64,000 nucleotides of DNA, taken from assembly GCF_900104025.1 (NCBI RefSeq), contig NZ_FNIQ01000004.1, forward strand, positions 186,001 to 250,000, read 5' to 3'. This DNA comes from Geodermatophilus sp. DSM 45219 (lineage in GTDB: Bacteria > Actinomycetota > Actinomycetes > Mycobacteriales > Geodermatophilaceae). The position numbers were made by a program, and so were the translations under genes. Every line of letters starts with the position of its first letter. Positions within the stretch are counted from its first letter, which is position 1. Shown in pieces: positions 36,613 to 45,978 of the stretch. The notes beneath the pieces are model-generated. The model ran no database searches, was not told where the DNA came from, and was given only the letters and a program-made list of their open reading frames with translations.

Positions 36613-37374
36613 TCATAGGACGTGTCGGCGCAGCGCCTCGTTGACGACCCCGGGAGCGGTCGCGTTCGGCAAGTGTGCGGCGCCGGGGACGACGGCGAAC
36701 TGCGCCTCCGGGATGCCATCTGCGATGAACCGCACCATCTCCGGCGTCGTCGCCGGGTCTTCGGCGCCGGCGATCGTCAGGGTGGACGCGGTGATCTCGC
36801 CGAGCCTGTCGCGCACGTCGAACGCGCCGATCGCCTCGCAGCAGGCCGCGTACCCCTCCGGCGGGGTGGCGCGCAGCATGTCGAGCAGCCGCTTCGCCTC
36901 TCCTGGGGAGCGCTCCGCCCACTCGGCCGTGAACCAGGTGCCGGTGCGGGAGGACTCCAGGAACCCGGTGCCCTCCTCGCGCACCTGCTGCGCCCGCACC
37001 GCCCACGAGGGCGGGTCGGCGAACTGCGCGGCCGACGCGATGATCGCCAGCTTCTCCAGCCGCTCGGGCACGGTGAGCGCCAGCTGCTGGCCGATCGCCC
37101 CGCCGATGGAGACCCCCGCGTAGGAGAAGCGCTCGACACCGAGCCGGTCGAGCAGCGCGAGCACGTCGGCGGCCAGGTCGGCCATCGTGCAGGGGCCCGG
37201 TACGACCTCCGACGCCCCGTGGCCGCGCAGGTCGTACCGGACGATCCGCAGCCGGTCGGCGAACGCCGCGACCTGCGCGTCGAAGAGGCCGGTGTCGGTG
37301 CCCAGCGACGGGCCGAGCACGAGCACCGGGGCGTCGGCGGGGCCGTCCACGACGGCGTGCAGGCGGGCGGTCAT
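36613..37374 (-). CDS. pcaD: 3-oxoadipate enol-lactonase (alpha/beta hydrolase)
   Basis: 253 aa, last gene of the catabolic operon. Alpha/beta hydrolase fold with the nucleophile elbow GVSIGG (Ser89), an acid in AGAEDPATTP and His in GAAHLPNATAP. The N-terminus (LVLGPSLGTDTGLFDAQ...RIVRYDLRGHGAS) is characteristic of PcaD/CatD enol-lactonases, which convert 3-oxoadipate enol-lactone to 3-oxoadipate. It overlaps the upstream NTF2-like gene by 4 bp. Together with catA, catB and catC it completes the ortho-cleavage route to 3-oxoadipate; the later transferase and thiolase are not in the window. Confidence 0.85.
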   Translation of the reverse strand: MTARLHAVVDGPADAPVLVLGPSLGTDTGLFDAQVAAFADRLRIVRYDLRGHGASEVVPGPCTMADLAADVLALLDRLGVERFSYAGVSIGGAIGQQLALTVPERLEKLAIIASAAQFADPPSWAVRAQQVREEGTGFLESSRTGTWFTAEWAERSPGEAKRLLDMLRATPPEGYAACCEAIGAFDVRDRLGEITASTLTIAGAEDPATTPEMVRFIADGIPEAQFAVVPGAAHLPNATAPGVVNEALRRHVL

Positions 37375-37850
37375 GTGTCCTCCAGGGTGGCGGCGCGGGC
37401 GGACTCGAGCGTGAACGTGTGCCGGTCCCAGCCGTCGGCCAGGGGCACCCAGTAGGAGAAGCGCACCCGCTTCTCCCGGTAGCGCCAGCCGGCCTCGGTG
37501 CGCACCAGCTCGTCGGTGTAGCGGCCGGCGGCCACGTGCGGGACGCCGTCGACGACGCACGGCTGCCACAGCAGCGAGGTCACCGAGGCGCGGTCGCCGT
37601 CCACCTCGATCTCCAGGTTGGACACGTGGTGCCAGAACGCGGTCAGGCCGCCGTCGGCCAGGCCGGCGAAGAAGGCCAGCAGGTCGGCCCGGCCCTCGAC
37701 CCGGCTCAGGCCGTCGAAGATGCCCTCCGGCGTGAACAGCCCCACCAGCCCCGGCCATTCGCCGTCGTCGAGCAGCCGGCAGTAGCGGGCGTCGAGCGAC
37801 CGGATCGCCTCGACGTCCTCCAGCCGCCGCAGCCGCTCCTCGATCGTCAC
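37371..37850 (-). CDS. NTF2/SnoaL-like protein
   Basis: 159 aa, a cone-shaped NTF2-like fold: N-terminal helices (RRLEDVEAIRSLDARYCRLLDDGEWPGLVGLFTPEGIFDG), then strands (FWHHVSNLEIEVDGDRASVTSLLWQPCVV, YTDELVRTEAGWRYREKRVRFSYW). The Y-C-x3-D and HH positions resemble aromatic-compound-associated SnoaL-like lyases and isomerases and the small subunits of ring-hydroxylating dioxygenases. No large subunit is nearby, so it probably acts alone. Translationally coupled on both sides (ATGA overlaps). Its exact step in the pathway is unknown. Confidence 0.65.
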   Translation of the reverse strand: MTIEERLRRLEDVEAIRSLDARYCRLLDDGEWPGLVGLFTPEGIFDGLSRVEGRADLLAFFAGLADGGLTAFWHHVSNLEIEVDGDRASVTSLLWQPCVVDGVPHVAAGRYTDELVRTEAGWRYREKRVRFSYWVPLADGWDRHTFTLESARAATLEDT

Positions 37851-38647
37851 CGGGCACCCTCCGGCAGGAAGTCCAAGGAGACGACACCGTCGCCCGCCGG
37901 GCCGCCGGCCAGGCGGATCGCGCCGCCAGCCCCGACCACGACCTCCACGCAGACCCGCGCGTCGAGTCTGGTGATCGCGACGGGGTAGCGGCCCGGTGCC
38001 GGCACCGCCGTCCCCGGCGGGACCGCCAGCACGCCGCCGGCCAGCCGGCCCTCGACGCGGTGCGGCCGGCCCAGCACCCGCGCCGCGCCGGCGACGTCAC
38101 CGGTGGCCAGACATGTGCGGACCTGTGTCGACGAGCACCGCACGCCCTCGGGGGAGAGCAGGTCGACGCCGTCGGCGGTGAAGCCGTGCCGCTGACCGAG
38201 CTCGGCGAGGGTGGCGACGTCCCCGGCCCCGCGGGCGCCGAACCGGAAATCGCTGCCGACGATGACGGCGTGGGCATCCAGCGCGTCGACCAGCACCCGC
38301 CGGACGAAGTCGTCGGGACACGTGCCGGCGAGCTCGGCGGTGAACGGCAGCACGAGCACCGCATCCACCCCGAGCTCCCCGGCCAGCTCCGCCCGCCGGC
38401 CCGGTGTCGACAGCGCGGCGGTGTCGCGCGGTGGGCCGACCACGCGGGCCGGGTGCGGGTCGAACGTGACCAGTACCGTCGGCAGGCCCCGCCCCAGACC
38501 CACGGCGACCGCTCGCTCGATGACCCGTACGTGCCCGCGGTGGACGCCGTCGAAGACGCCGATCGTCACCGCGCACGGGCCGAAGCCGGCCGGGACGTCG
38601 TCCAGCCCGTGCCAGAGCCGGGCGCCGGTCACGGTCGCCACGGTCAT
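37847..38647 (-). CDS. RibF-like FAD synthetase (FMN adenylyltransferase), riboflavin-kinase part degenerate
   Basis: 266 aa. The nucleotidyltransferase domain is complete: VTIGVFDGVHRGHV (GxFDGxHxGH), VLVTFDPHP, VIVGSDFRFGARGAGD and the closing RCSSTQVRTCL. The C-terminal riboflavin-kinase domain lacks its usual GFPTAN motif and is shorter than in typical RibF (about 310 aa). The protein probably makes FAD from FMN but may not phosphorylate riboflavin. The host should have its own RibF elsewhere, so this copy likely boosts FAD for the flavoproteins of the operon (reductase GcoB, flavin reductase). Overlaps catC by 4 bp. Confidence 0.75.
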   Translation of the reverse strand: MTVATVTGARLWHGLDDVPAGFGPCAVTIGVFDGVHRGHVRVIERAVAVGLGRGLPTVLVTFDPHPARVVGPPRDTAALSTPGRRAELAGELGVDAVLVLPFTAELAGTCPDDFVRRVLVDALDAHAVIVGSDFRFGARGAGDVATLAELGQRHGFTADGVDLLSPEGVRCSSTQVRTCLATGDVAGAARVLGRPHRVEGRLAGGVLAVPPGTAVPAPGRYPVAITRLDARVCVEVVVGAGGAIRLAGGPAGDGVVSLDFLPEGAR

Positions 38648-45344: not shown

Positions 45345-45405
45345 GGGAGAACCCTTCTTCGTCGGTGGAGTCGGGTGACGCGGTGGTGCAGGGGCCGCGC
45401 GGAGC

Positions 45406-45978
45406 TCAGGAGGCGGCGCGGTGCTCGTGGGAGTGCAGCGGGGTGAAGGTGGTCGAGGCGTCGAACCACCCCAGCTCCGGGCAGTCCATGGACCCGGCCC
45501 AGTGGATGCCGGTCGCCGGGGCGGCCAGCTCGCGGAAGCGGCCGCTGAAGAAGACGAGGGGCTCCTCGTCGGCGACCTGGAGGTCGGCGACCTCGCCGAT
45601 GACGATCAGGTGGTCGCCACCGTCATAGGTGCGCCAGGGCCGGCACGAGATGGTCGCCGCATTGCCCACGAGAACGGGGGCGGTCGGACCCTCGGCCCAT
45701 TCCGGCTCCGGGGACTGCGGCCGGCCCGCGAAGTGCCACGCCGTGTCCAGCTGCGCCGAGGACAGGACGTTGACCGCGAACGGCGCGTCCTCCAGGTAGC
45801 CGCAGGCCTTCGACTGCCGGGTGAGCGTCACCTGGCACAGGGCCGGTTCGAGGGAGACGGCGGTGAACGCGTTGACGGTGGCCCCGTGGGGGAGGCCGTC
45901 GTCCTTGGCACAGGTGACCACGGTGACGCCGGTGGCGAAGCGGCCGAAGGCGTTGCGGATCGTTCGTGGGTCGAGCAT
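45406..45978 (-). CDS. Flavin reductase, partner of the hydroxylase (HpaC/PheA2 family)
   Basis: 190 aa, flavin-reductase-like domain: [45 protein letters not shown] (FMN/FAD-binding) and [28 protein letters not shown]. It supplies reduced flavin to the oxygenase encoded 61 bp downstream. First gene of the catabolic operon; its start faces the IclR gene across about 145 bp, so the operon promoter lies there. Confidence 0.85.

Follow-up and report, generated by a model that had tools for sequence, protein, structure and literature searches.

The question raised by this locus is whether one compact and transferable set of genes could bring both guaiacol and phenol to catechol and then cleave the ring. 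The locus lies in a 64,000-nucleotide (nt) stretch of the soil actinobacterium Geodermatophilus sp. DSM 45219 (contig NZ_FNIQ01000004.1, positions 186,001 to 250,000), called the window here. A first-pass annotation had described it as a single operon, joining guaiacol O-demethylation and phenol hydroxylation to catechol ortho-cleavage, and as a mobile module. Our reading, to which we give a probability of about 0.7, is that the whole locus moves horizontally as an ortho-cleavage module for aromatics that yield catechol, with guaiacol and phenol as inputs and its own supply of flavin adenine dinucleotide (FAD).

Gene content and predicted pathway

Eleven open reading frames (ORFs) fill positions 36613-45978 of the minus strand, arranged head to tail from 45978 to 36613, and the intergenic distances in the order of transcription are 61, 59, 123, 6, 26, 28, 18, -4, -4 and -4 nt, confirming the tight packing claimed earlier. 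The row begins with a PheA2-type flavin reductase (45406-45978; PF01613, Flavin_Reduct, 113.9 bits), a two-component flavin monooxygenase assigned as a PheA1-type phenol hydroxylase with HpaB_N and HpaB domains (43740-45344), and CatA, an intradiol catechol 1,2-dioxygenase of the actinobacterial type (42835-43680; TIGR02438, 439.5 bits, cut-off 404.4). A cytochrome P450 of the CYP255A family (gcoA, 41488-42711), a GcoB-type reductase with 2Fe-2S, FAD and NADH domains (40432-41481; PF00111, PF00970, PF00175) and a small protein of the EthD family (40100-40405; TIGR02118, 84.4 bits, cut-off 30.5) come next. They are followed by the muconate cycloisomerase CatB (38950-40071; TIGR02534, 508.9 bits, cut-off 334.95), the muconolactone isomerase CatC (38644-38931; TIGR03221, 135.8 bits, cut-off 130.6), a RibF paralogue that holds only the flavin mononucleotide (FMN) adenylyltransferase, or FAD synthetase, domain (37847-38647; PF06574, 152.2 bits), a SnoaL/NTF2-fold protein (37371-37850; PF13577) and the 3-oxoadipate enol-lactonase PcaD (36613-37374; TIGR02427, 275.4 bits, cut-off 255.85). 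CatA, CatB, CatC and PcaD exceeded curated cut-offs, and the remaining genes are Pfam domain matches. A chlorocatechol pathway was ruled out for CatA, which reached 253.2 of the 359.25 bits required by TIGR02465. The family searches agreed with the eight genes named in the first-pass annotation (GcoA/GcoB, the HpaB/PheA1-type hydroxylase with its reductase, CatA, CatB, CatC and PcaD) and supplied the three that it had left unnamed, EthD, FAD synthetase and SnoaL. The same order recurs in other genomes, which argues that the arrangement is not due to chance.

In the pathway that we propose, the PheA2/PheA1-type flavin reductase and hydroxylase would convert phenol to catechol, the CYP255A P450 and its single reductase would O-demethylate guaiacol, or a closely related 2-alkoxyphenol, with catechol and formaldehyde as products, and CatA, CatB, CatC and PcaD would carry catechol to 3-oxoadipate. 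The convergence of two monomers on catechol and 3-oxoadipate is well supported by the gene content, while guaiacol as one of the inputs is likely only. The formaldehyde from O-demethylation would have a route, since the genome also encodes, at another locus, a mycothiol-dependent formaldehyde dehydrogenase (667.1 bits, cut-off 512.9). The steps beyond 3-oxoadipate lie outside the operon, and it speaks against the completeness of the scheme that no PcaF thiolase over the cut-off was found in the genome, the best match (497.1 of 597 bits) lying near a phenylacetate-CoA ligase gene.

PheA1-type hydroxylase and flavin reductase

The hydroxylase is 77.9% identical to WP_032492681, which is encoded on a plasmid of Rhodococcus opacus 1CP. 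This protein is reported as the PheA1 phenol hydroxylase PheA1(1), one of three that were knocked out in strain 1CP (PMC13101518). The hydroxylase tree had 18 rows; L030, L055, L056, L097 and L098 were dropped as too short, and L131, a repeat of the window, was omitted. A branch supported at 100/100 parted 13 rows, among them the window, PheA1(1) (L104) and Rhodococcus loci, from five Gordoniaceae hydroxylases whose genes lie less than 10 kb from another P450 of the CYP255A family. The flavin reductase was 47-95% identical to its full-length counterparts beside PheA1-type hydroxylases and 35-38% identical to those in the Gordoniaceae loci. Both marks of the PheA1 type were found, namely the grouping with a characterised PheA1 and the adjacent flavin reductase, and the assignment to this type, with phenol as the probable input, is well supported by sequence comparison. 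One point weakens it: among the 13 rows, the branch uniting the window's group with that of PheA1(1) and Rhodococcus had 93/91 support, slightly under the mark of 95/80. A 4-hydroxyphenylacetate hydroxylase (HpaB) was ruled out by the tree and by the model scores (701 of 885.2 bits for TIGR02310 and 281.2 of 480.2 bits for TIGR02309).

Regulator, hairpin and the single-transcript question

An IclR-type regulator that belongs to the PcaR/PcaU/PobR group is encoded divergently at 46124-46921 on the plus strand (TIGR02431, 316.7 bits, cut-off 284.75) and probably controls the operon. The candidate IclR operator GTACGCATAGCGGGC, an inverted repeat judged by eye, lies between the two at 46029-46043. 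Inverted repeats like GTACGC-ATA-GCGTAC were seen in the corresponding place in the window and in L004, L060, L056 and L006, again by eye and without a statistic.

It is likely that the eleven genes form one transcript. Against the single operon stands a 16-bp stem-loop without a T-tract at 42785-42823 on the minus strand, in the gap between catA and gcoA. This hairpin may be a terminator, an attenuator or a processing site; it is kept in three Geodermatophilaceae and could end transcription. The operon claim of the first-pass annotation was for this reason kept as likely only. Split at this point, FR-HpaB-CatA (flavin reductase, hydroxylase and CatA) and gcoAB-ethD-catBC-FADS-SnoaL-pcaD (FADS, FAD synthetase) would be two neighbouring units that are transcribed separately. 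In support of such a split, the stem-loop in the 123-nt gap is kept in Geodermatophilus ruber (L004) and occurs in a piece of a Geodermatophilaceae metagenome-assembled genome (MAG; L060) as a stem of 14 bp, two pairs shorter, with a compensatory change from T-A to G-C on both sides. However, the terminator scan called two terminators, neither of them at this hairpin; the hairpin is absent from Pseudonocardia L056, where the gap is 43 nt; the promoter scan, which suits these genomes poorly, found 0 sigma-70-like sites in the region; and with catA absent from the unit of catB there would be no pathway. We thus regard two separate units as unlikely and keep the single operon as the preferred reading.

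The P450 and its substrate

The best solved relative of the P450 is GcoA (5ncb; 673 bits), with 69.9% identity over 405 positions, and C356, which we take to be the heme ligand, is kept. The identity to an enzyme of Rhodococcus PD04, whose translation equals the solved chain 9ia1 (649 bits), is 68.0%. We call the PD04 enzyme AgcA-like from its Ala at position 296 and a neighbouring 4-hydroxy-2-oxovalerate aldolase gene. The P450 tree, rooted at its midpoint, had 58 rows, which were the window and 61 other loci minus the incomplete L049, L055, L057 and L060. The P450 of the window fell in a clade of nine rows (100/99) with L003, L004, L005, L006, L056 and three Roseobacteraceae loci. When 5ncb was added in a FastTree run (59 rows), GcoA, with T296 and I81, was placed in the other half, and the window fell outside the characterised GcoA clade.

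F75, F169 and F395 match the numbering of GcoA, as the first-pass annotation had pointed out, but they are invariant in 59/59 aligned rows, the AgcA-like ones included, and so they are not diagnostic of guaiacol. Position 296 does vary, being Thr in 32 of the 59 rows, Val in 17 (the window's among them) and Ala in 10, and position 81 is Leu in the window's half of the tree and Ile in the other. The AgcA study describes Ala293 and Leu78 of AgcA as lining the 4-alkyl cavity, where GcoA has Thr296 (PMC13101465). From Val296 together with the ortho-cleavage genes, guaiacol is the likely substrate.

Two features of the tree tell against this assignment. The window, with L81 and V296, shares its half (100/100) with a 13-row AgcA-like clade, and three rows inside that clade (L034, L038 and L044) also have Val296, so this residue alone is not a clean mark of guaiacol. 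Guaiacol O-demethylation was therefore kept as likely and not raised above it. The P450 could instead be AgcA-like or prefer another alkoxyphenol, in which case the second input would not be guaiacol and its catechol would be served only partly by the ortho pathway. The near-equal identities to GcoA and to the PD04 enzyme would agree with this, as would L81, which resembles Leu78 of AgcA (PMC13101465), the Val296 rows just mentioned, and the presence of a hydroxylase of the other, non-PheA1 group beside L044. On the other side, Val in the window replaces the Ala293 of AgcA in the 4-alkyl cavity and is near in size to Thr296 of GcoA, and agcAB and aphAB of Rhodococcus RHA1 sit with a meta-cleavage pathway (both after PMC13101465), whereas CatA, CatB, CatC and a PheA1-type hydroxylase are found here. 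PD04 likewise has its aldolase gene nearby, where the window has ortho-cleavage genes. An AgcA-like preference is in our judgement rather improbable, and guaiacol remains the favoured substrate. In Gordonia alkanivorans, GuaA is reported to be required for growth on guaiacol (PMC12488008); the P450 that we found in this species (L031) falls in the Thr296 half.

Mobility of the 11.2-kb block

The operon and its regulator lie in a block at 36063-47308 that is shared with Blastococcus TBT05-19 (L003) at 99.9% identity over 11,246 bp, with 13 alignment differences, one of them at the very edge. Outside the block the sole match was one 42-bp hairpin-like stretch, inside the transfer-messenger RNA (tmRNA) side of the Blastococcus locus. 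The chromosomal DNA right of the island (about 60-64 kb of the window) is 86-87% identical to Blastococcus TBT05-19. In the window's genome, one Blastococcus flank of the block has 85% identity to a block-free site on a different contig, and the other flank has smaller matches (84%; tmRNA 90%). Since the block is 99.9% identical and the compared chromosomal stretches only about 85-87%, its transfer was recent, and movement between genera as a unit is strongly supported by these comparisons. The mobility claimed in the first-pass annotation has accordingly held up: the block sits at unrelated loci in two genera and precisely interrupts an attachment (att) relic. The left block edge abuts this relic, a 25-nt 3' end of tRNA-Ala (36039-36063, plus strand) with a second copy at 49235-49259. 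When the window flanks were joined across the block, they aligned through the junction with the second relic, which shows that the insertion was precise. A tmRNA end was ruled out for the 25-nt repeat, as it matches the 3' end of tRNA-Ala.

Near its ends the block carries an imperfect 12-bp inverted repeat, CTGGCGAAAAGC, with the left copy at 36070-36081 (plus strand) and the right copy at 47289-47300 (minus strand); 2 of 5000 random end pairs matched as long or longer. The right end of the block was present in two of 112 family genomes, those of the window and, by coordinates, TBT05-19. No further exact copy of the left end was found in the window's genome, and none of the 28 matching plasmid records covered 80% of the block. 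No empty site for the Blastococcus insertion was found in the window's genome either, where the flanks lie apart, on contigs C11 (two places) and C3. The absence of a transposase or integrase among the block genes and the seven ORFs tested at its two ends counts against a mobile unit, as would be expected if homologous exchange of a larger stretch or an assembly artefact explained the match, and no clean target-site duplication could be assigned at the block ends and the end repeat is imperfect; yet we consider this explanation very improbable, because the flanks are dissimilar and the loci non-homologous, the block is interior to contigs of 1.34 Mb and 0.58 Mb, and the joined flanks align over the insertion point to the second relic. 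The operon would thus travel as the 11.2-kb block.

Several further features were seen in and around the block. The 3' part of an isochorismatase-family gene lies inside it at 36173-36559 (PF00857, 81.4 bits), with 83% identity to a gene on contig C12 that looks intact (G000:C12, L148). Two diverged tRNA-Ala att regions (35862-36063 and 49061-49259) carry GTTGCAGTTG-like direct repeats and have the appearance of integrase arm sites from elements since lost. A 47-nt exact copy of a tRNA-Gly 3' end at 35315-35361 (plus strand) has its partner at 51993-52039, which suggests that the two copies are the ends of a larger outer island. An IS3-family transposase pair is located beside the tRNA-Gly repeat (33997-35180; transposase 260.6 bits, cut-off 160). 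Left of the window (G000:C8:145583-147820) are two more tRNA-Gly 3'-end copies, of which one is exact and the other has 2 mismatches. C8:170472 holds an integrase, and the arrangement looks as if islands were stacked in tandem.

Gene order in relatives and probable assembly of the operon

In a genome of the same order (G494, L127) the regulator is followed by FR-HpaB-CatA-CatB-CatC-FADS-SnoaL-PcaD without the P450 genes, and then by CoA-transferase, thiolase and major facilitator superfamily (MFS) genes. Since this relative has the same operon minus gcoA-gcoB-ethD, the guaiacol cassette most likely entered a phenol operon at the point where catA meets catB; alternatively, an older fused operon may have lost the cassette. 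The cassette stands between catA and catB in Blastococcus TBT05-19 (L003) and G. ruber (L004), the MAG pieces L005, L049 and L060 fit the same insertion order, and Pseudonocardia L056 has gcoAB at this position without EthD and with shortened flavin reductase and HpaB genes. In L006, the operon was found without a CatC match and gcoAB lies about 1.3 kb further on. On the Pseudonocardia plasmid pLS1-1 (L100), the regulator is followed by FR-HpaB-CatA-FADS, a SnoaL gene whose frame is split, and a hydrolase that resembles PcaD (40%), and the stretch is flanked by IS3 and IS256 transposases.

The triplet gcoA-gcoB-ethD also occurs in other surroundings, 5' of catABC on a Dietzia plasmid (L102) and in the Roseobacteraceae loci L007-L009, in L007 directly 5' of a muconate-cycloisomerase-like gene. 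The P450 of these Roseobacteraceae is 81% identical to that of the window and nested among actinobacterial sequences (96/83). The triplet in this family would represent a transfer between phyla. Of 41 genomes, the window's included, 3 had a match to GcoA with an E value of 1e-100 or better.

FAD synthetase, EthD and SnoaL

The RibF paralogue has the FMN adenylyltransferase motifs GVFDGVHRGH, TFDPHP and SSTQVR. The motif PTAN, presumably a marker of the riboflavin kinase domain, is absent, and family matches stop near residue 206. The genome has a second, housekeeping RibF gene at G000:C3:217977. At E 1e-50 or better, 173 of 394 class genomes had a match, and of these only the window's genome (G000) and G494 had two. 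An operon-borne protein of this kind, always with the FMN adenylyltransferase motifs and without PTAN, was found in five settings (window/L003, L006, L056, L100 and L127). Because both entry systems use FAD, the protein probably raises the supply available to the hydroxylase and GcoB while the operon is expressed. In engineered E. coli, extra genes for riboflavin/FAD synthesis increased FAD(H2) and an HpaBC-dependent titre (PMC13188884).

Two observations lessen the weight of this role. No FAD synthetase was found between catC and snoaL in G. ruber L004 or the Modestobacter pieces L005/L049, so it is dispensable there, and the AlphaFold model, built from three sequences, was middling, with a predicted local distance difference test (pLDDT) score of 72.4 and a predicted template modelling (pTM) score of 0.58. 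The C-terminus of the protein (about residues 195-259) was modelled as strands, too little to call a shrunken kinase domain. An EthD gene comes after gcoB in 15 of the 61 other loci, and its product in L004 has only 71 amino acids (aa). Among solved structures, SnoaL had weak relatives only and EthD had one.

Comparison with known systems

The nearest published parallel is the agc/aph cluster of Rhodococcus RHA1 (AgcAB, AphAB, AphC), in which a P450 O-demethylase and a two-component flavin hydroxylase also lead to one catechol from one cluster (PMC13101465). It differs from the window in that it serves alkylguaiacols and alkylphenols and uses meta-cleavage, whereas the window has a PheA1-type hydroxylase and ortho-cleavage. 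Rhodococcus loci L035, L039 and L055 (cat-regulator-pheA2A1-gcoAB) hold the same enzymes (catABC, PheA and gcoAB) in a span of about 11 kb; their cat genes, however, are on the opposite strand and not in one operon, and EthD, FADS, SnoaL and PcaD were unmatched. In R. opacus 1CP, one study reports a PheA1 and an aromatic O-demethylase cluster as both up-regulated in some conditions (PMC13101518), and in R. rhodochrous J3 only the reductase gene was reported to lie directly beside the P450 gene (PMC6411806).

GcoAB of Amycolatopsis ATCC 39116 is likewise a two-component system that keeps F75, F169, F395 and C356, but with 70% identity and with I81/T296 in place of L81/V296. The row gcoA-gcoB-ethD-catA-catB-catC on the Dietzia kunjamensis plasmid pDK2035-77 resembles the window in leading from guaiacol to ring cleavage with an EthD gene, and differs by its AraC regulator, its S-(hydroxymethyl)mycothiol dehydrogenase and the lack of a phenol hydroxylase and FADS in the stretch. 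Plasmid pLS1-1 and genome G494 share with the window the order of regulator, FR-HpaB-CatA and FADS-SnoaL-PcaD, but not the P450 cassette, and on pLS1-1 catB and catC were also unmatched, the SnoaL frame is split and PcaD is only 40% identical.

In a search of titles and the beginnings of abstracts, with most subscription journals outside it, we found no paper on a fused guaiacol-phenol operon, none on an operon-borne FAD synthetase or an EthD gene beside an O-demethylase, and no assay of any P450 from the group that lies between GcoA and AgcA. Clusters linking these parts are already known in Rhodococcus, and the fused operon with FAD synthetase and EthD appears to be a new variation of them. 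A bolder proposal, which we put forward only tentatively and hold to be doubtful, is that the P450 belongs to a third substrate group (L81/V296) between GcoA and AgcA, that the block is a transposase-free mobile cassette with ends recognised in trans, and that the operon, with its two substrates, is self-sufficient through its own FAD synthetase.

Likely defence genes to the left of the block

Left of the IS3 transposase and the operon island is a Gabija-type pair (29999-33669), a GajA-like OLD ATPase (848 bits) with a GajB-like UvrD helicase (693 bits). A SIR2-type protein followed by a class I prokaryotic Argonaute of 486 aa (25673-28995; 573 and 581 bits to PADLOC models) is likely a second defence system. 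Further left are a reverse transcriptase of the UG22 defence group (23953-25464; 411 bits) and an ORF of 1833 aa (17507-23008), for which PADLOC gave only weak helicase/reverse-transcriptase-associated matches.

Biological meaning

Both guaiacol and phenol arise when lignin is broken down and are found in smoke. A small unit that is transferred in nature and channels the two compounds to 3-oxoadipate could be used as it stands in lignin conversion. The presence of an FAD synthetase gene in the operon suggests that cells have their own answer to a shortage of flavin that engineers correct by hand. With a nearly identical block in two genera, the locus represents a recent and testable transfer of operon size, and the relatives show the likely insertion of its cassette. 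If the bolder proposal is true, a new host would acquire guaiacol and phenol breakdown and, with it, a source of the cofactor that the two entry enzymes need.

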